From assembly GCF_014863405.1 (NCBI RefSeq), contig NZ_JACZZA010000001.1, positions 372,001 through 436,000 on the forward strand: a DNA stretch of 64,000 nucleotides. The letters are read 5' to 3'. The notes below the pieces were generated by a model. That model worked only from the letters and a program-made list of their open reading frames with translations, was not told the origin of the DNA and searched no databases. Below, in pieces: positions 10,078 to 57,311 of the stretch. The stretch comes from Dyella acidiphila. Lineage in GTDB: Bacteria; Pseudomonadota; Gammaproteobacteria; Xanthomonadales; Rhodanobacteraceae. The translations under genes and the position numbers were made by a program. Within the stretch, counting starts at the first letter, position 1. Every line of letters starts with the position of its first letter.

Positions 10078-11457
10078 ATGCCAGCCCTGATCGAACTCCG
10101 CTCCAGCCGCCGCGCCCCGACCCCGATCGAGGCGACCGATGCCGTCCAGCTCAGCGCCACGCGCAAACGCCTGAGTGCCGCGCAGCGCAGCTGGCTGGAT
10201 GACAACGGTTTCGATGCCGCGCCCGGCAGCGTGTGCCTGCTGGCCGATGCGCAGGGCAAGCTGGCGCGCGTGCTGGTGGGCGTGGATCGGCGTGAGCCGC
10301 TGGCCGCATTGGCAGGGCTGCCGGTGAGCCTGCCGGTCGGCGAATACACGCTGGCCAGCGAAGGCGTGCCGCTCGATGCGCAGTTGGCCGCACTCGGTTG
10401 GGCGCTGGGCGCGTATCAGTTCACCCGCTATCGCAAGGCCAAGCGCGCACCGGCCACGCTCGCCGTCGATGCCAAGACACTGGACGCCGTGGAACCGCTG
10501 GTCGATGCCACCCAGCTGGTACGCGATCTGGTCAACACGCCCACCGAAGACATGGGCCCCAAGCAGCTGAGCGACGCGGTGAAGCAGCTCGGCAAAACGT
10601 ATAAGGCCAAGGTGCGCGAGTGGGTCGGCGATGAATTGCTGGAAGACAACTTCCCCACCATCCACGCCGTGGGCCGCGCCAGTCATCGTCCGCCGCGCCT
10701 GATCGAACTGAGCTGGGGCAAGGCCACCGATCCGAAGCTGGTGCTGGTGGGCAAGGGTGTGTGCTTCGATACCGGTGGCCTGGATCTGAAATCCAGCGAC
10801 GGCATGCGCTGGATGAAGAAGGACATGGGCGGTGCCGCGCACGCGATCGCACTGGCCGGGCTGGTGATGGAAGCAAAGCTGCCGGTGCGCCTCACTTTGT
10901 TGATTCCCGCAGTGGAAAACGCGGTAGCCGGCAATGCCCTGCGTCCGGGCGAAGTGGTGGTGACGCGCGCCGGGCACAGCGTGGAAATCGACAATACCGA
11001 TGCCGAAGGCCGCCTGGTGCTGTGCGATGCGCTGGCCTACGGCGCCGAACAGCAGCCGGAGCTGATCATCGACTTCGCCACGCTTACCGGTGCCGCACGC
11101 GTGGCGCTCGGTCCCGACCTGCCGGCGCTGTTCGCCAACGATGATGCGATCGCCGACCAGGCGCTGGCCTGCAGCCGCACGGTGGCCGATCCGCTGTGGC
11201 GGCTGCCGCTGTGGCGTCCGTACCGCAAGATGCTCGATTCCTATATCGCCGACTTCGCCAACTCCGGCCCGTCGCGGCATGCCGGTGCGATTACTGCAGC
11301 GCTGTATATGGAGCGCTTCGTGCCCGAAGGCATGCCCTGGCTGCACCTGGATACTTACGCCTGGAACGACGGCGACCGTCCGGGTCGTCCGCGCGGTGGC
11401 GAGGCGATGGGCCTGCGCGCGATGTTCGCCCTGCTGAGCAAGCGCTACCCCCGCTGA
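10078..11457 (+). CDS. M17 family leucyl aminopeptidase
   Basis: A 459-residue cytosolic metallo-aminopeptidase that removes N-terminal residues from peptides using two metal ions. The M17 signature NTDAEGRL is at 306-313. The metal and catalytic residues can be placed: Lys226 and Asp231 (GKGVCFDTGG), Lys238, Asp249 (KKDMGG), Asp308, Glu310 and Arg312. It is shorter than PepA (about 500) and nearer PepB-like members; the divergent N-terminal domain covers residues 1-150. It is followed by a hairpin at 11496-11520, then another aminopeptidase gene, an apparent peptide-use pair. Confidence 0.92.
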   Translation: MPALIELRSSRRAPTPIEATDAVQLSATRKRLSAAQRSWLDDNGFDAAPGSVCLLADAQGKLARVLVGVDRREPLAALAGLPVSLPVGEYTLASEGVPLDAQLAALGWALGAYQFTRYRKAKRAPATLAVDAKTLDAVEPLVDATQLVRDLVNTPTEDMGPKQLSDAVKQLGKTYKAKVREWVGDELLEDNFPTIHAVGRASHRPPRLIELSWGKATDPKLVLVGKGVCFDTGGLDLKSSDGMRWMKKDMGGAAHAIALAGLVMEAKLPVRLTLLIPAVENAVAGNALRPGEVVVTRAGHSVEIDNTDAEGRLVLCDALAYGAEQQPELIIDFATLTGAARVALGPDLPALFANDDAIADQALACSRTVADPLWRLPLWRPYRKMLDSYIADFANSGPSRHAGAITAALYMERFVPEGMPWLHLDTYAWNDGDRPGRPRGGEAMGLRAMFALLSKRYPR

Positions 11458-11495
11458 TGCCGGGGGCGTGACTTCTGGCTTTGTCGCACGCGGCC

Positions 11496-11520
11496 AATAC
11501 CGCCCATGATGGGCGGTATT
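11496..11520 (+). terminator. hairpin after M17 peptidase gene
   Basis: A perfect 11-bp stem AATACCGCCCA / TGGGCGGTATT with a 3-base loop, 38 bases after the stop codon. Only a short T-run follows, so it may attenuate rather than fully terminate before the M1 gene at 11540. Confidence 0.6.
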
Positions 11521-11539
11521 TCCCAATGGCCTCGATACC

Positions 11540-13279
11540 ATGCCCAAGCTGCGTCCCGCCCTGCTCGCCCTCAGCCTCGTCGCCGGCATCGCCAGTGCCG
11601 CCAGCACGCAACCGCCAGCACAGCCGCCGCTTACCGCACTGACGGAAAACTCCGGCGGCATCATGCCGCCCGAGCAGCGCCGCACGCATTTCGATCATGC
11701 GGAACTGCATATCGCCGTGGATCCGGCCCAGCAGCGCATCGACGCCACCGCCACGCTGACCTTCACGGCGAATGCGGCCACCGATGTGTTGCTGCTCGAT
11801 CTGGACCGCAACCTGCCGATCAGCGCCATTGAACTGGACGGCATGCCGCTGCCCGCCAGCGCCTGGAGCAATCCGGAAGGACGCCTGCGCGTGCAGTTGC
11901 CACATGCGCTGAGCGCGGGCGAAAAGGTCTCGGCCACCGTGCATTACGGCGGCCGTCCGCACGTGGCCAAGCGCGCGCCCTGGGATGGCGGTTTTGTGTG
12001 GAGCCATACCGCCGACGGCCAGCCCTGGGTAGGCAGCGCGGTGGAAGGCGAAGGCTGCGATCTGTTCTGGCCGTGCATCGATCATCCGGAAGGCAAGCCG
12101 GATCTGGTCGACCTGTATGTCACCGTGCCCAAGCCGCTGGTGGCGCCGGGCAACGGCGTACTGGTCGGTGTCAGCGAGGAAGGCGACAAGCGCACTTATC
12201 ACTGGCGCGCCAAACATCCCACCACCTATGCGATCTCGATCAACGTAGGGCCGTACAAGGAACTCACCGGCGACTATCACAGCCGCTACGGCAACACGAT
12301 CCCGCTGCAGTACTGGTATCTGCCCGGTCACGAGCAGCAGGCACAGGGCCTGTTCGCCGAATTCCCGCGCATGCTGGAATTTTTCGAAGCGCAGATCGGG
12401 CCCTACCCGTTCGGCGACGAAAAAATGGGCGTGGTGGAAACGCCGTACGAAGGTATGGAACACCAGACCATCAACGCCTACGGCAACGACTACAAGAAAG
12501 ACGGCAGCGGCTTCGACTGGCTGCTGCAGCACGAGTTCTCGCACGAATGGTTCGGCAACCAGATGACCAATGCCGACTGGAACGACATGTGGCTGCATGA
12601 GGCCTTTGCCACTTACATGCAGCCGCTGTACAGCCAGGCGATCAACGGCGACATGGGCTATTACGCGTGGCTGGACAAGCTGCGCCTGTCGCTGCAGAAC
12701 CGCTATCCGGTGGTGTCTGAGCACAGCGAGACCGAAGCGCAGGTCTACGACGACGCGCACGGCCCGGGCCTGGATATCTACAACAAGGGCGCGCTGATGC
12801 TGCATTCGCTGCGCGACCTGATCGGCGACCAGGCCTTCTTCGCCAGCCTGCGCGAGCTGGTATACGGACGGCCGGATCCGCAGCCGGGCAATTTCCAGCC
12901 GCACTACCAGGGCACGCAGGATTTCGTGGCGATCGTGAACAAGGCGGCCGGGCGCGATCTCAGCTGGTTCTTCAATGTGTATCTGTATCAGCCTGTGCTA
13001 CCCAAGCTCGACGTGCAGCATCAGGGCGACACGCTGGCCCTGCACTGGCAAGTACCGCACGATCTGCCCTTCCCGATGCCGGTGGAAGTCCAGGTCGATG
13101 GCAAGCTGCACACGCTGCCGATGGCCAATGGCCAGGGCAGCCTCGACAACGTGCCCGCACATGCGCTGGTGATCGTGGATCCGCATTCGAAGTTGTTGCG
13201 CGATCTGCCGCAGGTCACCGAGTACCAGCAGTGGCGCAAGCAGCAAGCGGCCAAGGGCAAGCCCAAGCAGGATGGCTGA
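11540..13279 (+). CDS. secreted M1 family metallo-aminopeptidase
   Basis: 579 residues. A signal peptide (LALSLVAGIASA, about 20 residues) indicates a periplasmic or secreted gluzincin. An N-terminal beta domain spans about 45-240. The exopeptidase loop is GMEHQ (305-309, variant of GAMEN), the zinc motif HEFSHEWFGN is at 331-340 and the third zinc ligand Glu354 lies in LHEAFATY. It lacks the large C-terminal helical domain of PepN, so it belongs with the short aminopeptidase N/leukotriene-hydrolase-like forms. It probably trims imported or extracellular peptides. Gene order suggests a peptide-use role shared with the preceding M17 enzyme. Confidence 0.92.
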   Translation: MPKLRPALLALSLVAGIASAASTQPPAQPPLTALTENSGGIMPPEQRRTHFDHAELHIAVDPAQQRIDATATLTFTANAATDVLLLDLDRNLPISAIELDGMPLPASAWSNPEGRLRVQLPHALSAGEKVSATVHYGGRPHVAKRAPWDGGFVWSHTADGQPWVGSAVEGEGCDLFWPCIDHPEGKPDLVDLYVTVPKPLVAPGNGVLVGVSEEGDKRTYHWRAKHPTTYAISINVGPYKELTGDYHSRYGNTIPLQYWYLPGHEQQAQGLFAEFPRMLEFFEAQIGPYPFGDEKMGVVETPYEGMEHQTINAYGNDYKKDGSGFDWLLQHEFSHEWFGNQMTNADWNDMWLHEAFATYMQPLYSQAINGDMGYYAWLDKLRLSLQNRYPVVSEHSETEAQVYDDAHGPGLDIYNKGALMLHSLRDLIGDQAFFASLRELVYGRPDPQPGNFQPHYQGTQDFVAIVNKAAGRDLSWFFNVYLYQPVLPKLDVQHQGDTLALHWQVPHDLPFPMPVEVQVDGKLHTLPMANGQGSLDNVPAHALVIVDPHSKLLRDLPQVTEYQQWRKQQAAKGKPKQDG

Positions 13280-43392: not shown

Positions 43393-44301
43393 ATGAAAAA
43401 CGCCCGCTATCTGCCGCTGTTGTACTGCCTGTGCTGGGGAGGACAGGCACTTGCCGACACCCCGCTCGATCTCAGTCATCCGGCGGCACCCACCGCACAC
43501 ATCGACATCACCAACGTCAAAGGCGAGGTCTCCATCACCGCCTGGAATCGCAACGAGGTGCATGTCAGCGGCCAGCTCGGCAACGGTGCCGAACCACTGA
43601 CCATTGAGGGCAGCGAAAACAATCTGGTGATCAAGGTGCAGGCGCAAGGCCACGACGGCTGGCTTAACTGGGGCGGCGACAAGGCGATGTCTTCGTCCAC
43701 GCTGGATATCAACGTGCCGCGCGGCGCATCGGTGAAGGTAAACGTGGTGAGCGCACCATTGAGCATCGACGGCATCGACGGCGGCGACATCGCGGTCAAT
43801 TCAGTCAGCGGCCGCGTGCGCATCAATGCACAGACGCCGATGCTCGACGTGGTAACGGTGAGCGGCAACGTCGCTTTCTCCGGCCATGCCAGGCAGGCCA
43901 AGCTGCAGACGGTAAGCGGCGACATCCTGGCCCCTTCGCTGGGACAGTCGGTAGACCTGCAAACCGTATCCGGCCATATCCAGGCCAGCGGCGGCCCGTG
44001 GGATCACCTCGGCCTGAGCACCGTATCCGGCGATGTGCAATTGACCGGCGGCCTGGCCCCGAACGGCAACATCAGCATCGACAGCATGAGCGGCGACCTG
44101 CAGCTGCAATTCCCGGCCTCGCTGTCCAGCAATCTGCATGCGACCACCTTCAGCGGCGATCTGCGCAGCGACTTCGGTACGCCCACGCGCCCCGAACATG
44201 GACCGGGCAGCACGCTCGATACCGTCGCCGGTGGCGGCAACGGCAAGATCAGCGTCGAGACCTTCAGCGGGGACTTGAGAATTCGAAAAGGCAGCGATTG
44301 A
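43393..44301 (+). CDS. DUF4097 secreted beta-helix-like protein
   Basis: 302 residues with an N-terminal signal peptide (LPLLYCLCWGGQALA). The mature part is a run of degenerate repeats built on VSG-D/H/R phrases (NSVSGRVRIN, VTVSGNVAFSG, QTVSGDILA, QTVSGHIQASG, STVSGDVQLTG, DSMSGDLQLQF, ETFSGDLRIR), as in DUF4097 proteins that form a right-handed beta-helix. It follows the sigma/anti-sigma pair by 21 bases and is likely part of the regulon or a periplasmic signal input. A hairpin at 44313-44336 follows. Confidence 0.87.
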   Translation: MKNARYLPLLYCLCWGGQALADTPLDLSHPAAPTAHIDITNVKGEVSITAWNRNEVHVSGQLGNGAEPLTIEGSENNLVIKVQAQGHDGWLNWGGDKAMSSSTLDINVPRGASVKVNVVSAPLSIDGIDGGDIAVNSVSGRVRINAQTPMLDVVTVSGNVAFSGHARQAKLQTVSGDILAPSLGQSVDLQTVSGHIQASGGPWDHLGLSTVSGDVQLTGGLAPNGNISIDSMSGDLQLQFPASLSSNLHATTFSGDLRSDFGTPTRPEHGPGSTLDTVAGGGNGKISVETFSGDLRIRKGSD

Positions 44302-44312
44302 GCGAAATCGCA

Positions 44313-44336
44313 ATGGCTATGCGCCAGCATAGCCAT
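44313..44336 (+). terminator. hairpin after the DUF4097 gene
   Basis: ATGGCTATG / CATAGCCAT, a perfect 9-bp stem with a 6-base loop 11 bases after the stop. No T-tract follows, so terminator function is uncertain. Confidence 0.45.
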
Positions 44337-44395
44337 CGAATTCCACGGCGCATGCTGTGACTTCGCTCCAGCTTGCGCCGCACCTCTTCGGGGTA

Positions 44396-44791
44396 TTACT
44401 GCGCAGGTTTCGGGCGAAATACGAAAATACACGCCCCAATGAAACTGACGCCCGTATAGGCGGCCACACCAAACAACTGCGCCAGCCTGTGGTCAATGTG
44501 CAATACATCACGGGCCGTCAACATTACCCAGAGATTGACCGCATATGCGCCACCCGCGACGAGCACGAAGCGCACGAATTTAGCCACCGTGGGGCGGTCC
44601 TGTTCGAAGGTCCATTTATTGTTGACGAAGAAACTTACGCAGATTCCCACGGCATAGCCAACCGCATTGGACGCGACATCGCTCAGCCCGATCGCCATAC
44701 ACGAATAAATCAGCGTCAGGCCGACCGCCGTGTTCAACAATCCGGTCGCCAGGTATTTAAGAAACTTCAGGTAGATCTGCTGCATGGTCAT
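44396..44791 (-). CDS. gtrA: GtrA-family membrane protein
   Basis: 131 residues with four membrane helices: FLKYLATGLLNTAVGLTLIYSCM, NAVGYAVGICVSFFVNNKWTF, FVRFVLVAGGAYAVNLWVML and LFGVAAYTGVSFIGACIFVF. The GtrA signature NKWTF is present. GtrA proteins are thought to flip polyprenyl-phosphate-linked sugars to the periplasm. It is the last gene of the CDP-sugar/glycosyltransferase island, supporting an O-antigen or wall-glycan modification role. Confidence 0.9.
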   Translation of the reverse strand: MTMQQIYLKFLKYLATGLLNTAVGLTLIYSCMAIGLSDVASNAVGYAVGICVSFFVNNKWTFEQDRPTVAKFVRFVLVAGGAYAVNLWVMLTARDVLHIDHRLAQLFGVAAYTGVSFIGACIFVFRPKPAQ

Positions 44792-44833
44792 GATATTCCG
44801 GCGGACTGCCGGGATATTCCGGAACTGGCCGGC

Positions 44834-46354
44834 CTATCCCGCTGCCACCACCTCCAGCGCCCCATCATTCCAGCGCGTGACAAGCACTCCTGCCTTCGGC
44901 CCGGACTTGAGCTCAGGCAGATCCTCGCATCGCGGCGTGGACGAAATCGGGAAACGTCGAGCGACCGGATCGATCCTGTCTACAGAAAGCGGCGTACAGA
45001 TCGTGGCCTCTACCCCCTCGGTTCCCGACGCCCCCAAGGCCTGACTCAAAGTGTGCTGGTAAAGCGTGTAGACGTCACCCAGCTGCCCGGTCATGTCTTC
45101 AATGACCAGCGTTCGCGACTTGTGTGCTTTCACCACATTTAATGCCTGAGTTATCACATTTCGCTGCAATACGGCATCTTGCCGTACCGCGTTACCCAGG
45201 AAGCCGCAATTAATCAACAAAATCAAGACAACCATTGAACCGTTCACGGCGTTGACCGCCTGCATACGGCGCCGCGAAAAGAAGTTGAGCAGCGCAAAGG
45301 CAAGCAAAACTGCGCCCGCCGAAAGTGGGAACGTAATGCGCTGAGGATCGTTCAAATGCAACGCATCTACATAGACCAGACCGAGCAACGGCATCAATAC
45401 CAGGCAGAGAAGCGCCAGCAGCATCACGCGCCATTGAAGCGAACGTTGCTCGAGTTTTTCCATCCCCGGCCAACACAGCATACCGATGGCGGCAAACAAC
45501 AACGGCAATACTGTGGGCTGCTTGACGTAGCTGGTCACGACAACCGCCTTGACATGCGCAATGACCGCAGGAAGCGTGAACAGACTGCCCGAGCCGCTAG
45601 CGATATTTTCCTCGTACAGATCCGCGCCCAATACGTGGGAAATCACCAGCCAGTAGAGCCCGTAGACCACACCTCCCAACGCAATGGCCGCATACATCCG
45701 GACCATGGAATTGATCGTAGTAGCGAATGTTTCGGCCCGACCGTCGACGCCCTCGCCGCGCAGCGAGAGAATGGCAAATGGCGCAACCGCAATGCACAGG
45801 AACAAGCCCTGATACGTAGCCAGCAGGAGCAATACGCATAAGGCGCACATGGCGCCCCACCTTACCGACCAGCGTGGGTACAACCGAATAACGCAACCAA
45901 AGGCCAGAAAGAAAAAGACCGCCGACAATTGCGAAGGCGCGTAACGCCCAAGCCATGCACCATCCCATGGCACAAGTACTGCGGCCATCGTCGAAATTAC
46001 CCAGCGGCCATGCCCGGTCAATAGCGGACTCACCGCCCAACGAGCCGCAAAGTAGCGCAATAGCAAAAACACCGCCGTTGCAGCCGCTACGCCAAGCCTC
46101 GGATGATGCCCGGCACCCAGCACCCATTGCGTTGCGTACGCAATGAGGTGCAGTGGGCGCATCGTGTGGAAAAAGCCCGTTGCAATATATCCGAGGCCAT
46201 AATCGTGAAAAGCGAGTAGCAACCCCCACTCTTCAAGCAAAGGACCTACACAAGCAAAAGCGATCACCATGAGCACGCACAATGTCAGCAGCTCCAGCCG
46301 CAGCTGACTACGAACCTCGTCCGGTGACGCCGTCATCTTGTTTTCCTCTGCCAC
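44834..46354 (-). CDS. polytopic GT-C-like membrane protein, putative Gtr-type glycosyltransferase
   Basis: 506 residues with about ten membrane helices. It resembles the GtrII-type (Glucos_trans_II) family: an acidic first loop after helix 1 (FHDYGLGYIATGFF), MVPWDGAWLGRYAPSQLSAVFFF and a soluble C-terminal domain after residue about 400. In phage-type gtr operons such proteins transfer the lipid-carried sugar to lipopolysaccharide in the periplasm. The sequence is divergent and the call rests on topology plus neighbours (gtrA 42 bases downstream, a gtrB-like gene two genes upstream). Base composition is visibly more AT-rich than the surrounding genome. Confidence 0.65.
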   Translation of the reverse strand: MAEENKMTASPDEVRSQLRLELLTLCVLMVIAFACVGPLLEEWGLLLAFHDYGLGYIATGFFHTMRPLHLIAYATQWVLGAGHHPRLGVAAATAVFLLLRYFAARWAVSPLLTGHGRWVISTMAAVLVPWDGAWLGRYAPSQLSAVFFFLAFGCVIRLYPRWSVRWGAMCALCVLLLLATYQGLFLCIAVAPFAILSLRGEGVDGRAETFATTINSMVRMYAAIALGGVVYGLYWLVISHVLGADLYEENIASGSGSLFTLPAVIAHVKAVVVTSYVKQPTVLPLLFAAIGMLCWPGMEKLEQRSLQWRVMLLALLCLVLMPLLGLVYVDALHLNDPQRITFPLSAGAVLLAFALLNFFSRRRMQAVNAVNGSMVVLILLINCGFLGNAVRQDAVLQRNVITQALNVVKAHKSRTLVIEDMTGQLGDVYTLYQHTLSQALGASGTEGVEATICTPLSVDRIDPVARRFPISSTPRCEDLPELKSGPKAGVLVTRWNDGALEVVAAG

Positions 46355-46520
46355 TTATATTTCCCCAACGATTTTTAACTCGACCCAATTCAGTGGAACG
46401 ACTTGAATAATCGAGGCGCCCCAGCAACTCCCCAGCTTCAATTCCGCGACCTTGAATGCCGGCGGGCGAAACAGCACAGACTGGAGATCATGCATCGGCA
46501 GCTACGCCGCCTTACCAAGC

Positions 46521-47309
46521 TCAGACTTTTATCCTGTCAACGCTTTTCAGCCACGGCGCGTCACCGCTTTCCCAAAGCGCCTGCAATTCCCGCTTGTCGC
46601 GGAGCGTATCGCAAGGGCGCCAAAAGCCAGCGTGCTGATAGGCGGCAAGCTGCCCGTCTTTCGCCAGATTGGAAAGCGGCTCGCGCTCCCATGACATGGC
46701 ATCACCTGCCACATAGTCGATGGCAGCAGCTTCAAGCACGAAAAACCCGCCATTGATCCAGCCGATTTCGTCCTGGGGCTTTTCCTCGAAACTCGAGACC
46801 AGCTTGCTTTCATTGATACTGAGTACGCCAAACCGCCCCGGAGGCTGCACGGCGCACACGGTGGCAAGCTTCCCGTGCTTGCGATGAAAGGCGATTTCGG
46901 CGCCCAGATCGACATCGGACAAGCCGTCGCCATAGGTCATGCAAAATGTTTCGTTGCCGAGATAAGGCGCTACACGCTTCAGCCTTCCGCCAGTCATCGT
47001 GTCGGCACCGGTGTCGACCAGCGTAATCCGCCAATCTTCCGATTGACTGTTCAACGTCTCATGTGAACCGGTGCGCAGATCGATGCGCATATCGGACATA
47101 TGGCGGTAGTAGTTGAAGAAGAACTCCTTGATCACATAGCCCTTGTAGCCGAGGCAGATCACGAAATCGTTGATGCCGTGCGCCGCATACATCTTCATGA
47201 TGTGCCACAGCAATGGCCGGCCGCCCACTTCAACCATCGGCTTGGGCCGGGCATCCGATTCTTCTGCAATACGCGTACCCAGTCCGCCGGCGAGAATAAC
47301 TGCTTTCAT
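46521..47309 (-). CDS. rfbF: glucose-1-phosphate cytidylyltransferase
   Basis: 262 residues. It makes CDP-glucose from CTP and glucose-1-phosphate, the first step to CDP-linked deoxy sugars. The nucleotidyltransferase start MKAVILAGGLGTR, the KPMVEVGGRPLLWHIMKMYAAHGINDFVICLGYKG block, TYGDGLSDVD with the metal Asp, and FWRPCDTLRDKRELQALWESG are characteristic of RfbF. It lies 14 bases after the GT2 gene in the same unit; rfbG, the next enzyme of the pathway, is three genes upstream. Confidence 0.95.
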   Translation of the reverse strand: MKAVILAGGLGTRIAEESDARPKPMVEVGGRPLLWHIMKMYAAHGINDFVICLGYKGYVIKEFFFNYYRHMSDMRIDLRTGSHETLNSQSEDWRITLVDTGADTMTGGRLKRVAPYLGNETFCMTYGDGLSDVDLGAEIAFHRKHGKLATVCAVQPPGRFGVLSINESKLVSSFEEKPQDEIGWINGGFFVLEAAAIDYVAGDAMSWEREPLSNLAKDGQLAAYQHAGFWRPCDTLRDKRELQALWESGDAPWLKSVDRIKV

Positions 47310-47323
47310 GACGATTCCTGTTA

Positions 47324-48286
47324 CTACAGTTTGAGGTCGCCAGGCTCAATATTGAGGCTCTGCTCGACGATGGCGATGGGGTCCGCTCGCAAGGTGCGGT
47401 AAATTCGCAGAATGTATTCCCCGATTATTCCCAGCAGAAATGCATTCAATCCGATGCCGAACAACAGCAGGAGCTGAATGCTGGTAAAGCCCCTGGGAAG
47501 ATTGGGATCGATCAACCGTAAACCCACATAATAAATGGCGGCGGCACCGCTCAGAAAAAGAATGAGCACCCCTACGTAGGTCGCCAGGCGCAGCGGCACC
47601 GCAGAGTGATTGAACACCGCGGTCAGGCCAAGCCGCAGAAGCCGCACTACATTGAATTTGCTCTCGCCACCCGTGCGAGCATCTCTGTCGTAGACGATGC
47701 CGGTCTGCTCGAACCCCATTCCGGCAATCATGCCCCGCAGATAAGGAGTGGCCGAACGAGTGCGTGCAAGCGCATTGATGACTGCACGGTCGACGAGTCG
47801 AAAATCGCCAACATCCCGAGGAATGGAGTGTTCGCTGATCTTGTCGATAAACCAGTATCCGCATTTGCGGAACATGTTCAGCAATGCGCTTTCGGGCCGT
47901 TTTCTACGAATGCCGTATACAACCTTGTAACCCTGCTGCCAGAGCTCGAAAAACTGTTCGAGCAGCTCCGGCGGATCCTGCAAATCCGCGTCGACCTGCA
48001 TGACAGCATCGCCACGCGTGTGCAGATAGTTGGCCAGGATCGAATTCTGGAAGCCAAAATTCCGCGAAAAGCGGATCGCCCTTACCCGCGAATCGCTTGC
48101 AGCAAGCCCGCGAATGATCGCCCAGGTACGATCTTCGGAATGGTTATCCGTAAAGACGAACTCAAGCTCGCAACGATCCGCCATGCGCTCAGCCAGAGCG
48201 CAAAGCCGCGCATACAACGTATCGAGGTTGCTTTCCTCGTTCAAAACGGGAATGGATATGGAAATGAGCGGCTTCTTGTTGGTCAT
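47324..48286 (-). CDS. GtrB-like polyprenyl-phosphate glycosyltransferase (GT2)
   Basis: 320 residues from the ATG at 48286, which has GGAAG upstream and overlaps the previous stop (ATGA). The GT2 domain has SISIPVLNEESNLDTL, the acidic TDNHSED motif, MQVDADLQDPPELL and DVGDFRLVDR, followed by two C-terminal membrane helices and the IIGEYILRIYRTLRADP ending of DPM/GtrB enzymes. Such enzymes charge undecaprenyl phosphate with a sugar. The first Asp motif reads TDNHSED instead of the DDGSRD seen in the second homologue at 56343, which may reflect a different nucleotide-sugar donor, plausibly a CDP sugar made by its neighbours. Confidence 0.9.
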   Translation of the reverse strand: MTNKKPLISISIPVLNEESNLDTLYARLCALAERMADRCELEFVFTDNHSEDRTWAIIRGLAASDSRVRAIRFSRNFGFQNSILANYLHTRGDAVMQVDADLQDPPELLEQFFELWQQGYKVVYGIRRKRPESALLNMFRKCGYWFIDKISEHSIPRDVGDFRLVDRAVINALARTRSATPYLRGMIAGMGFEQTGIVYDRDARTGGESKFNVVRLLRLGLTAVFNHSAVPLRLATYVGVLILFLSGAAAIYYVGLRLIDPNLPRGFTSIQLLLLFGIGLNAFLLGIIGEYILRIYRTLRADPIAIVEQSLNIEPGDLKL

Positions 48287-49137
48287 GATCCGATCTTCCC
48301 GGCAGCCACCGCCCCGGATGTGCAGCAAGCGCACATATATTCGACAACCCCCTGAATCGCATCACGGAATTCAATCGTATCCAGCATCATCGTCGGCGCA
48401 AAGGTTTTGCCGTAATTTTCTTCGCTCGGTTCCGGCAACGCCCCTACGCGAAGCAAATGATTTTTTTCGAGCGCCCCAAATACTGCTTCAGCAAGCGCCC
48501 GCAAACTTACGGGCTTGCCGTGACTGAGGTTTGTCACACCGACCATCTCGGGCATCCCGGCAATTAAGCGGACGGCGCGCGCCTCGTCTTCAAAATGGTG
48601 ATATTCGCGAAGCTGGCGCCCGGAGGTCATCCGGAACGGCTCATTGTTGCGGATGGCAGTCAGCATCTGCCCAAGGAACATGAACGGACTGGGCTGCCCA
48701 CCGCCATAAAGCGTATGAATTTGCAGATGCAATACGGGCCATGCGGCACTGAGCGCCTCTTCAACGTATTCGCGGAGCCGCTTCTTGCTCTCGACATAGG
48801 CATTGCCTACATCCAGCAGGCTTTCCATGATGGTGCCGAAGGTCACTACCTTGATGCCAAGCCGGGCCGCGCCGTCTATCACGTTTCTAGGCAAGCGGTA
48901 GTTCACGCTCACCAACTCATCCGTCGCCAAACGGGGATCCAGCAAACCCGACGCAACAAAGACCGTAGCATCGGCGGCATGCGGACTGAAGTAACGGGCA
49001 ATCCGATCTACCGCATTCGCTCCCGACCAGTCCGCGTAGACCGAACGCTGCAACGATATGATTTCCTGGTTGGCATACTGGCTTGCGATGGCCTGCCCCA
49101 GTCGCCCGCCTCCCCCGATCAAATAGTAGGTGCTCAC
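48283..49137 (-). CDS. NAD(P)-dependent SDR epimerase/reductase, putative CDP-4-keto-6-deoxyhexose reductase
   Basis: 284 residues from the GTG at 49137, whose GTGA overlaps the rfbG stop. An extended-SDR protein: cofactor loop GGGGRLG (8-14), the active-site Thr/Ser region (VTFGTIMES) and the YVESK catalytic Tyr-Lys. It is shorter and more divergent than rfbG and resembles the C4-ketoreductases that finish deoxysugar pathways (RfbJ-like). With no rfbH (3-dehydrase) nearby, the likely substrate is CDP-4-keto-6-deoxyglucose, giving CDP-fucose or CDP-quinovose. That assignment is inferred from context. Confidence 0.72.
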   Translation of the reverse strand: MSTYYLIGGGGRLGQAIASQYANQEIISLQRSVYADWSGANAVDRIARYFSPHAADATVFVASGLLDPRLATDELVSVNYRLPRNVIDGAARLGIKVVTFGTIMESLLDVGNAYVESKKRLREYVEEALSAAWPVLHLQIHTLYGGGQPSPFMFLGQMLTAIRNNEPFRMTSGRQLREYHHFEDEARAVRLIAGMPEMVGVTNLSHGKPVSLRALAEAVFGALEKNHLLRVGALPEPSEENYGKTFAPTMMLDTIEFRDAIQGVVEYMCACCTSGAVAAGKIGS

Positions 49138-50213
49138 TGGCTGCCCGCACGCCAGGCATTGATCTGGGCAAGCGATATGGCCTGTGCAGCAGCGGGATCT
49201 GCGTAATAGTCGCGATACCATCCGGCCGTTTCGCGCACAGCCTGTTCGGTATCCCACACCGGCAGCCATCCCAGCCGATTGCGTGCAAGGGAGCTGTCTA
49301 GCGCAAGCGCCTGGGCTTCCGGCAGCGGATTGTTCATGTATTCGAGTGCAGGACGTTTCCAGGACCCGCTCATGAGTTCGAGCACGTCGCGGACGGAATA
49401 TTGCTTGATATCCTGCGGCCCTAGATTCCACGCTCTGGCGACGGCGCCCGGGTCGTCCGAAGCCAATCCGGCGAGAATCAGCAAATAGCCGTGCACCAGG
49501 GCAAGTACGTGCTGCCACGGCCGCGTGGCATCGGGATAGCGCAAGGTCAGCTCGCCGCCACCCACCACGGCACGGACAAAATCCGGAATCAGGCGATCTT
49601 CGGACCAGTCACCGCCACCGATGATGTTGCCGCCACGAGCGGTCGCGATCGCAGGGCCCTTTCCTTCCGACCACGGATAGGAAACGGCATAGCTTTGTAT
49701 AACCATCTCGGCCGCAGCCTTCGATGCGCTATAGGGATCCTTGCCGCCCAGGGGATCATTCTCCCGATACGGCCAGGGCCACTCGTTGTTCTGATAAACC
49801 TTGTCTGTGGTGATGCAAAGCACCCCCTTGACGCTCTTCACCGAACGCGCCGCTTCCAGCACATGCGCCGTACCCTGCGCATTGACCATGAAAGTTCTTG
49901 CGGGCTCGCGATACGAACGCCGCACCAGAGGCTGCGCGGCAAGATGCAAGATCAGTTCGGGCTCAAAAGCCGATACGGCATGCCGCACGGCCTCATAGTC
50001 CGCCACGTCACCTAAAGTCGTTGCGGTATTTTTGGCCAGGCCGGTCGCCTCGAACATGGAGGGCGATGTCTCCGGCGGCAACGCGTAGCCGGCAATGTCC
50101 GCCCCGATCGAATGCAGCCAGAGGCAAGCCCAGCTTCCGGTAAAACCTGTGTGCCCTGTAACAAGAACCTTTTTGCCTGCCAGCAGGTTTTCAAAAGAAG
50201 CCATCTCGTCCAT
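49134..50213 (-). CDS. rfbG: CDP-glucose 4,6-dehydratase
   Basis: A 359-residue extended SDR converting CDP-glucose to CDP-4-keto-6-deoxyglucose. The NAD loop is VTGHTGFTGSWACLWL, then HLAAQPLVRRSYREP, TTDKVY with the catalytic Thr, and PYSASKAAAE with Tyr and Lys. DATRPWQHVL and YRDYY near the C-terminus are typical of RfbG rather than RfbB. It is the first gene of the six-gene minus-strand island. An alternative ATG lies 9 bases in (50204). Its promoter should lie in 50214-50423. Confidence 0.94.
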   Translation of the reverse strand: MDEMASFENLLAGKKVLVTGHTGFTGSWACLWLHSIGADIAGYALPPETSPSMFEATGLAKNTATTLGDVADYEAVRHAVSAFEPELILHLAAQPLVRRSYREPARTFMVNAQGTAHVLEAARSVKSVKGVLCITTDKVYQNNEWPWPYRENDPLGGKDPYSASKAAAEMVIQSYAVSYPWSEGKGPAIATARGGNIIGGGDWSEDRLIPDFVRAVVGGGELTLRYPDATRPWQHVLALVHGYLLILAGLASDDPGAVARAWNLGPQDIKQYSVRDVLELMSGSWKRPALEYMNNPLPEAQALALDSSLARNRLGWLPVWDTEQAVRETAGWYRDYYADPAAAQAISLAQINAWRAGSQ

Positions 50214-50423
50214 TCCAATGAATTCTTCAGCTCAAGCATGACCATTGAGCTTCATTCCGCAAAAGAAACATGCCCACTGCGGACCACCTGATGGCGGCCG
50301 TCGATCATGGCAAGCAACAGCTCCCAAGGCACGCTTTTCAGCAAATGCACCTGCCTGGGAAGGCGGAATTGTAATCCAGGTCAGCCCTGCGGGACGCGGG
50401 GTGTCTTATGCGGCACAGGGCCG

Positions 50424-51305
50424 TCAGAGGTCCTGATGATATTGAACGTAAGGCGTGCGCGACTGGTCGGGCTCAGGCGGCCCGGCCGGCGTATTGGTGC
50501 TATTGCCGGAAGACCACAGGTTCTGCGCACCGAAGCTCAGCGAACCCTGCCACGGCAGGCGCCAGGTGACGCCCAGATCGATGCTGTTCCAGCGACGATC
50601 GGTGGTAAAGCTGGACGGCAGCCCCACGCCCTGCTCGGGCTGCATGGTGCGGCCGATGATGCTGCCACTGACCGAGCCATGCTCGACGCCGAAACTCAGC
50701 GCTTTCTGATCCAGCGCATTGAGTCCAAGCAGATTGCCCGGCATCAGGCGGATGCGGCCCATGCTTGCGCCGAGCAATACGCCATTGTTGTTGTTCAACG
50801 CGAAACGGCCACGCGCATTGACCTGCGTGCTGCTATCGAAATCCGCCAGCCCGTTTACGCCGGTTACCGCGCCCGGCAATACACGCGGCAGGACCACCGC
50901 GCTATTGGGCATCTGGTCCTGCGCCACACTCAAGCCCAGGCTGTAGCGGCCGGTGTTGTAGGTGGCGCCGACTTCACTGCCGACAATACGCGGCTGGCTG
51001 ACCCAGGAGCGCTGGGTTACGTCGGCCTGCGCGGTAACGTTCGGCGTGACGCTGTACTGCAGCCCGCTGGAACTGACCGTACCGCCCGAAAGCGGGTTGA
51101 ACGACAGATTGGAGTTGTTCTGCGCGCCGGCCGTCGATGCATTTTGCGACTGCACCAGCAGCGAGCCCTGCGGCAGTTGCCCGGACTTGGCAAGCGCGGA
51201 TTGCTGCAGCCACACCGGGTTGCCCTGCTGATCGCCGTCCAGCGTCTGCCCTGCCGCAAGAAGCGGCACGCAGAGCAGCGGCAATGTGAGCAACAGTCGG
51301 CGCAT
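50424..51305 (-). CDS. secreted putative outer-membrane beta-barrel protein
   Basis: 293 residues that I do not recognise. A clear signal peptide (MRRLLLTLPLLCVPLLAAG) is followed by alternating polar/hydrophobic strands rich in Asn, Ser, Gln and Gly (TPNVTAQADVTQRSW, YNTGRYSLGLSVAQDQ, VNARGRFALNNNNGVLLGASMG, WNSIDLGVTWRLPWQGSLSFGAQNLW). These look like transmembrane beta-strands, but the last residue is Leu rather than the usual Phe. It could be a small porin-like or autotransporter-remnant protein. It is upstream of the rfbG island, on the same strand, 210 bases away. Confidence 0.7.
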   Translation of the reverse strand: MRRLLLTLPLLCVPLLAAGQTLDGDQQGNPVWLQQSALAKSGQLPQGSLLVQSQNASTAGAQNNSNLSFNPLSGGTVSSSGLQYSVTPNVTAQADVTQRSWVSQPRIVGSEVGATYNTGRYSLGLSVAQDQMPNSAVVLPRVLPGAVTGVNGLADFDSSTQVNARGRFALNNNNGVLLGASMGRIRLMPGNLLGLNALDQKALSFGVEHGSVSGSIIGRTMQPEQGVGLPSSFTTDRRWNSIDLGVTWRLPWQGSLSFGAQNLWSSGNSTNTPAGPPEPDQSRTPYVQYHQDL

Positions 51306-56342: not shown

Positions 56343-57311
56343 ATGCCGCGACTTACGGTAGTTGTTCCCGCCTACAACGAATCAGCCGTGCTGACGGCAT
56401 TTCACGCGCGCCTGTCCAAGGTGCTCGATCAGCTGCCGCTGGCCTGCGACGTGATGTATGTGGACGACGGCAGCCGCGACGACACCTGGTCGATCATGCA
56501 GTCGCTGGCGGCGTCGGATCCGCGTGTCGGCACGCTGAAACTTTCGCGCAATTTCGGCAAGGAAGTGGCGCTCACGGCGGGGCTCGACCATGTGGATGCC
56601 GATGCCGCGGTGGTGATCGATGCCGACCTGCAGGATCCGCCCGAGCTGATTCCGCAACTGGTCGAGCAATGGCAGGCCGGCTACGACGTGGTATACGCCA
56701 CGCGCAGCGCACGGGCCGGCGAAACCGGTCTCAAGCGTTTCACCGCCGCCGCGTTCTACCGCACCATGGAAATGATGTCGGACGTGGCGGTGCCGCGCGA
56801 TACCGGTGACTTCCGGCTGCTTTCGCGCCGCGCGCTGGCCGCGCTCGGCCAGTTACGCGAGCGGCAGCGCTTTATGAAAGGCTTGTTCGCCTGGATCGGT
56901 TACCGCCAGACCTCGATCAAGTACATGCGCGATCCGCGCCTGGCCGGCGCCACCAAGTGGAATTACTGGCGCCTGACCCAGTTTGCGATCGAAGGCATCA
57001 CCTCGTTTTCCAGCGCACCGTTGAAGCTGGCCACCTGGACCGGCCTGGCCGCGGCGGTGCTGGCGTTCCTGCTCGCGGTGAAAGTGCTGGTGAAGGCGCT
57101 GCTGCACGGCGATCCGGTGCCGGGCTATCCGAGCCTGATGGTGGTGGTGCTGTTCCTGGGCGGCATTCAGCTGCTGGCGATCGGCGTGATCGGCGAATAC
57201 ATCGGCCGCAACTACAACGAGAGCAAGCAGCGGCCGCTTTATTTCATCGAGGAAGAACACCGGCCCGGCGCCCGCACGCCGCTTCACACCGAAGCAACGT
57301 TGCAGGACTAA
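56343..57311 (+). CDS. GtrB/DPM-like glycosyltransferase (GT2), second copy
   Basis: 322 residues. Canonical polyprenyl-phosphate glycosyltransferase: VVVPAYNESAVLTAFHARL, YVDDGSRDDTW, VIDADLQDPPELI, DTGDFRLLSRRAL and two C-terminal membrane helices ending IGVIGEYIGRNYNESKQRPLYFIEEE. It charges undecaprenyl phosphate, probably with glucose. Unlike the copy at 47324 it stands outside any sugar cluster, with no gtrA next to it. Its DDGS motif is standard. Confidence 0.9.
   Translation: MPRLTVVVPAYNESAVLTAFHARLSKVLDQLPLACDVMYVDDGSRDDTWSIMQSLAASDPRVGTLKLSRNFGKEVALTAGLDHVDADAAVVIDADLQDPPELIPQLVEQWQAGYDVVYATRSARAGETGLKRFTAAAFYRTMEMMSDVAVPRDTGDFRLLSRRALAALGQLRERQRFMKGLFAWIGYRQTSIKYMRDPRLAGATKWNYWRLTQFAIEGITSFSSAPLKLATWTGLAAAVLAFLLAVKVLVKALLHGDPVPGYPSLMVVVLFLGGIQLLAIGVIGEYIGRNYNESKQRPLYFIEEEHRPGARTPLHTEATLQD

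Follow-up and report, generated by a model that had tools for sequence, protein, structure and literature searches.

Which activated sugar feeds a gtr-type glycosylation set that is encoded together with genes for cytidine diphosphate (CDP)-glucose synthesis? A locus of Dyella acidiphila raises this question. We analyzed a stretch of 64,000 nucleotides (the window: assembly GCF_014863405.1, contig NZ_JACZZA010000001.1, positions 372,001-436,000, forward strand), in which an initial annotation had described six co-directional minus-strand genes, the first three joined by 4-base overlaps, and had tied a GtrB-like family 2 glycosyltransferase (GT2) with an odd donor motif to a CDP sugar. All open reading frames (ORFs) and overlaps were verified: rfbG overlaps the gene of a short-chain dehydrogenase/reductase (SDR), and this gene overlaps that of the GT2, by 4 bases each, and 14 bases separate the GT2 gene from rfbF. 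We found a conserved link between this type of GT2 and the CDP-glucose genes, and the island probably encodes a periplasmic glycosylation system of three components that draws on a CDP-6-deoxyhexose, with CDP-D-fucose as the probable donor. Its features, in window coordinates, are:

49134-50213, minus strand: rfbG, CDP-glucose 4,6-dehydratase (TIGR02622).
48283-49137, minus strand: SDR, putative CDP-4-keto-6-deoxyglucose 4-reductase (PF01370; reaction suggested by position and pathway).
47324-48286, minus strand: GT2, GtrB-type polyprenyl-phosphate glycosyltransferase with Asn48 replacing the motif Asp (sll0501 match, AlphaFold2 model, residue comparison).
46521-47309, minus strand: rfbF, glucose-1-phosphate cytidylyltransferase (TIGR02623).
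44834-46354, minus strand: multi-helix protein, putative GT-C transferase (role suggested by its place beside gtrA).
44396-44791, minus strand: gtrA, putative flippase for the lipid-linked sugar (PF04138).
44304-50422, minus strand: the putatively acquired island, approximate ends (empty-site comparison and low GC).

In the proposed route, RfbF would make CDP-glucose, RfbG would convert it to CDP-4-keto-6-deoxyglucose, and reduction of the keto group by the SDR would yield a CDP-6-deoxyhexose, which is most likely CDP-D-fucose. The GT2, in which the uracil-reading Asp is now Asn, would load the sugar of this CDP donor onto undecaprenyl phosphate, GtrA would flip the lipid-linked sugar, and the 44834-46354 product would pass it, as a GT-C enzyme, to a periplasmic glycan that is most likely the O-antigen. 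The parts of this route that the sequence supports are RfbF, RfbG, GtrA, the GtrB-type fold, the failure to find RfbH, the conserved core and the association of Asn with CDP genes.

The island GT2 matches the GtrB protein sll0501 with 204 bits. Its AlphaFold2 model (pLDDT 83.6) has the GtrB/ArnC fold: its best structural likenesses are GtrB and ArnC, and the best match in the PDB is 9nyc (TM 0.73, rmsd 7.5). VIA-align gave broad GT-A matches that ranked beneath the GtrB, ArnC and DPMS rows and were not used for function. The motif is D47-N48-H49-S50 in the island enzyme versus N-D-G-S in sll0501 and phage P22 GtrB, both of the Asp type, and Asn48 thus stands at the position of the motif Asp. 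The remark of the initial annotation on this motif turned out to be the key observation. N3 of uracil bears a hydrogen and N3 of cytosine none, and an Asp-to-Asn change would therefore be expected for an enzyme using CDP. A second GtrB-like GT2, of the DDGS Asp type and 36% identical to that of the island, lies approximately 6 kb rightward (56343-57311, plus strand). The papers cited here by PMC number are drawn on for their relevant passages. In SpsA, Asp39 coordinates uracil N-3, and mutants of the equivalent Asp40 in a mycoplasma GT2 have <2% activity; in a different enzyme, a comparable mutation changed little (PMC3849446).

Among 112 GtrB-like GT2s compared, 61 carry Asn and 51 Asp at this position. 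rfbF or rfbG lies within 12 kb of 50 of the 61 Asn-type enzymes versus 2 of the 51 Asp-type enzymes (Fisher 2e-18 across the 112, kinship ignored). GT2 matches below 110 bits or spanning less than approximately 250 residues (including L086 and the split gene of genome G083) were dropped before counting, as were nine short loci duplicating refetched regions. Many of the Asn rows were obtained with scan patterns that included the query's own motif; the fairer test is a class-wide sample, which gave the residues of 61 GT2 copies among the matches listed from 126 of 369 genomes. Near rfbF, this sample holds 9 Asn and 1 Asp, and elsewhere 2 Asn and 49 Asp (Fisher 3e-8); the ten loci near rfbF were chosen deliberately, their residues not being known beforehand except for L036. 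For scale, rfbF is present in 89 of the 369 class genomes. Eight of the 11 Asn enzymes lacking an rfbF or rfbG neighbor come from genomes with rfbF elsewhere. When the motif columns were left out of tree building, all Asn rows fell on one side of a single branch (SH-aLRT 89). Read from this tree, the Asn change is one old event that stayed coupled to the CDP genes, not many repeats.

Several points weigh against our proposal. On the tree, Asn and Asp enzymes part only once, and the association counts are therefore not independent. No rfbF was found in the metagenome-assembled genomes of two Asn enzymes (L056 and L066), in genome G271 the contig of the Asn enzyme has a weak partial rfbF match (37%) shortly past the examined stretch, and L206 has Asp although it stands beside rfbF. 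N48 is the presumed counterpart of SpsA Asp39, as read from the motif register. The scan that gave the core loci described below had the motif stretch of the query itself among its seeds, and the 44834-46354 protein matches no Pfam or NCBIfam family, with chance-level matches only at E up to 1. The island could also be an ordinary Gtr system, in which the GT2 works on UDP-glucose, with UDP standing for uridine diphosphate, and RfbF, RfbG and the SDR supply a separate cytoplasmic glycosyltransferase. UDP-glucose is the donor of characterized GtrB enzymes (PMC4728340), and the overall fold is alike. However, the island lacks any other glycosyltransferase gene, the window already has an Asp-type GtrB at 56343-57311, and the motif change, its coupling to CDP genes and the conserved order of the core all speak against this explanation, which we consider improbable.

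The neighborhood of the GT2 in relatives gives a second line of evidence for the CDP-fed system. A GT2 scan of genome contigs yielded 49 loci, of which 27 (L038-L064, GT2 identity at least 63% over most of the protein) form, with the partial L086 and with L034 from another genus within the window's family, a core set of 29 loci. In 7 of 50 loci, greedy ORF calling failed to give the GT2 ORF, and genes were therefore counted by tblastn. The order rfbG-SDR-GT2-rfbF is kept in 24 of the 29 core loci, from Variovorax to Pseudomonas; as for the five exceptions, contig ends cut off L056 and L086, the genes of L059 are rearranged, and a dehydrogenase takes the place of rfbG in L057 and L064. Eight of the 29 carry gtrA downstream (seven from Variovorax and one from a Burkholderiales bacterium); another 18 have a PF01593 flavoprotein, in 17 cases along with a PF03706 protein. 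In this set the gtrA and flavoprotein modules do not occur together, L056, L057 and L086 have neither (downstream modules were scanned with Pfam in representatives), and the window locus is of the gtrA kind. The island had been described as joining CDP-sugar synthesis to a gtr set. This is not supported: its four core genes form a ready-made cassette that occurs widely, and only the GT-C/gtrA end is local. Judged from these neighborhoods, the link between CDP synthesis and the GT2 is real and predates the island.

Two observations concern the related cassettes themselves. In L051 (11731-14112) and 17 more core loci, the PF01593 flavoprotein takes the place that gtrA has in other loci and is a candidate mutase, with the PF03706 protein as a candidate flippase, for a lipid-linked furanose; the flavoprotein exceeds the cut-off of NF005560, a family that NCBIfam names "hypothetical protein". 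In L059 (Xenophilus aerolatus), the GT2 is with the PF03706, flavoprotein and GT-C genes, and rfbF, SDR and rfbG are approximately 7 kb off on the opposite strand; the two modules can therefore separate.

Other sugar pathways were found beside Asn-type GT2s, and rfbF is present in all seven of these variant loci (L073, L080, L077, L082, L084, L057, and L064). In three of them, RfbH (above cut-off in L073:7436-9097 and L080:8514-9839) or an RfbH-like protein (below cut-off, L077:7744-9075) is placed between rfbG and the GT2, which suggests lipid loading of a CDP-3,6-dideoxyhexose. Sugar C-methyltransferases (PF08421/PF08484) are encoded near the GT2, rfbF and rfbG at L082:8116-9447 and L084:13376-14626. 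A nucleotide-sugar dehydrogenase (TIGR03026, above cut-off) replaces rfbG at L057:91-1428 and L064:7214-8581, where rfbF, the SDR and the Asn-type GT2 are retained and a CDP-uronate or CDP-pentose version is possible; L057 ends with an ArnT-like gene. The upstream genes vary while rfbF is constant, and the GT2 therefore seems tied to CDP and not to a particular sugar. A broader reading, to which we give about an even chance, is that the Asn-type GT2s form an old lineage of polyprenyl-phosphate glycosyltransferases that works with CDP only, occurs in several phyla and differs from its relatives by a single base-reading residue. This lineage would open a lipid-linked periplasmic route to CDP-sugars at large, whether 6-deoxy, 3,6-dideoxy, C-methylated or dehydrogenase-derived. 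In the commonest cassette, the PF01593 flavoprotein would give a furanose (for example, D-fucofuranose) and the PF03706 protein would flip it, and the window would hold the GtrA-flipped pyranose version.

We then consider which sugar the island makes. Both CDP-glucose enzymes exceed the cut-offs of their NCBIfam equivalogs (RfbG, 422 bits against 278 for TIGR02622; RfbF, 405 against 300 for TIGR02623), in line with the initial annotation, and the next best RfbG match in the genome has 30% identity and 53.5 bits. The annotated lack of rfbH also held in a genome scan: among 7 DegT-family matches, the four strong ones, to which the RfbH model was applied, score 142-193 bits against its cut-off of 423, the other three being weak and partial. 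No RfbH having been found, the product should be a CDP-6-deoxyhexose. The SDR passes PF01370 and has no NCBIfam equivalog match; Y114 and K118 of YxxxK are kept in 26 of 26 aligned SDRs. We dropped the SDR as a marker of the system: it has matches in 24 of the 369 class genomes, but one is the window itself and the other 23 are weak (E no better than 1e-11), and plasmids gave no match.

The sugar is most probably CDP-D-fucose. The C4-reductase of Campylobacter jejuni HS:41 turns CDP-4-keto-6-deoxyglucose into CDP-D-fucose (PMC12369002). The same machinery could handle another sugar if the SDR made CDP-D-quinovose, were an epimerase, or worked on the 4-keto sugar once this had been loaded onto the lipid. 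Two SDR types occupy this position in the core, the window type in 23 of the 29 loci and a second one in 6, and the window SDR, which matches no NCBIfam equivalog, has a weak match to a PDB chain, MoeE5. Against this, the window-type SDR occurs in an O-polysaccharide locus of Pseudomonas avellanae, and D-fucofuranose is reported from other strains of the Pseudomonas syringae group: alpha-D-fucofuranose in the O-polysaccharide of pv. phaseolicola (PMC10888714) and D-fucofuranose in the exopolysaccharide of pv. actinidiae (PMC12173070). The O-chains of pv. tomato carry N-acetylfucosamine side residues instead (PMC6804347); the strains differ, and D-fucose is thus favored indirectly. Another sugar is possible, although we think it the less likely outcome. 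As to ring form, the island has no flavin mutase gene, and the sole genome match to the flavoprotein of the related cassettes, which was used as query rather than the HS:41 mutase, has 29% identity and lies approximately 45 kb off in another gene set. Without a flavoprotein in the island, the pyranose form is predicted.

At the periplasmic end, GtrA matches PF04138 with 85.8 bits (cut-off 26.1). The 44834-46354 product had been called GT-C-like: its multi-helix topology agrees with this name, but no family match stands behind it. A single-sequence model of low confidence (pLDDT 49.9) contains numerous helices and, toward the C-terminus, a small portion with strands. Relatives were found neither among the neighbor ORFs of 50 loci nor in plasmids, and in 233 family genomes the copy in the window stands alone. 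One multi-helix protein of Variovorax aligns locally with 22 bits (E 0.051 in a single comparison), which is only suggestive. The likeliest acceptor, as judged from gene context, is the O-antigen. A different polysaccharide or a protein acceptor (pilin, for instance) would be compatible with an island that has no acceptor gene and whose putative GT-C resembles no family found. However, in P. avellanae (L050, window-type SDR) the cassette is preceded by an ABC-2 permease, a Wzt with its C-terminal domain, a methyltransferase and a GT4, and a large polysaccharide locus lies 22-78 kb from the island on the same contig (C11, approximately 445-500 kb; its Wzm/Wzt, gmd-like and rml-like labels were assigned by eye and some other genes were tested). 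We consider a non-O-antigen acceptor rather unlikely. On this contig, one stretch (C11:457-469 kb; L246:5153-6577 and 10637-12894) encodes a UbiA+HAD protein, an SDR and a PF01593 flavoprotein, which recalls pentofuranose three-component systems (PMC11127046).

Empty sites in related genomes delimit the island approximately. In 14 of 15 other genomes of the genus, the counterparts of 43393-44301 and 50424-51305 are directly adjacent; in the 15th, the counterpart of 50424-51305 abuts pckG. Homology to the empty site ends at approximately 44303 and restarts at approximately 50423, with approximately 6.1 kb (44304-50422) in between in the window; in the eight empty sites inspected, a short stretch with an apparent terminator hairpin separates the flanking genes. 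The SDR has no match among the 15 genomes. GC had been noted as visibly low, and measures 57.0% in the island versus 65.2% and 65.1% in the 10-kb flanks; only 0.2% of the window's 6.1-kb stretches are lower, and GC at third codon positions is 0.66-0.70 in the six island genes versus 0.79-0.82 in five neighboring genes. With the empty sites and low GC as evidence, horizontal acquisition of the island is part of the best explanation. No tRNA was found within the window and no long flanking repeats at the island ends. On the tree, the GT2s nearest to that of the island belong to Variovorax and a Burkholderiales bacterium. Phages gave no near source: the relatives in 130 phage records all have <60% identity.

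If our proposal is true, a CDP-specific branch would explain how unusual deoxy sugars are added as side chains after polymerization, nucleotide choice would acquire a one-residue hypothesis, and a GtrB-like GT2 with DNxS near rfbF would become a search key for more systems. Among the papers listed in open-access full-text literature, with subscription papers mostly outside, no recognizable description of a CDP-sugar-fed GtrB system was found, and relevant passages on P. syringae lipopolysaccharide genes contain no CDP-sugar terms. Periplasmic modification of the GtrB type is described as UDP-sugar-driven (PMC11127046), rfbF/rfbG and gtrB are named in different Oxalobacteraceae genera and not linked (PMC9834719), and Pseudomonas protegens has rfbF, rfbG and an RfbH (PMC12361813).

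Among known systems, O-antigen glucosylation by GtrA/GtrB/Gtr(type) in Shigella and Salmonella phage P22 resembles the island in its GtrB-type GT2, GtrA, polytopic last gene and acquisition as an island. ArnC/ArnT shares a related GT2 fold, and the related locus L057 has an ArnT-like gene; unlike the system proposed for the island, it uses a UDP donor and adds 4-amino-arabinose to lipid A. The three-component system of Citrobacter youngae O1/O2 reportedly has a MATE-type flippase, in contrast to the GtrA of the island. Like the system proposed for the island, the C. youngae pentofuranose addition has a lipid-linked donor, periplasmic GT-C transfer and exchangeable sugar-modifying enzymes, but it follows a UbiA-like phosphoribosyl route without similarity to GtrB and adds pentofuranoses (PMC11127046). 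Gtr systems differ in that their donor is described as a UDP-sugar (PMC11127046), in their motif Asp (P22, sll0501) and in their lack of sugar-synthesis genes of their own. The Escherichia coli O52 pathway also makes activated D-fucose from glucose, although on deoxythymidine diphosphate rather than CDP, as D-fucofuranose, with Fcf1 and the mutase Fcf2 (PMC10888714). The CDP-D-fucose/CDP-D-fucofuranose pathway of C. jejuni HS:41 stops at the CDP-sugar and has a flavin mutase, no lipid carrier being described in the relevant passages; as proposed for the island, CDP-glucose is made and dehydrated, and the 4-keto group is reduced (PMC12369002).

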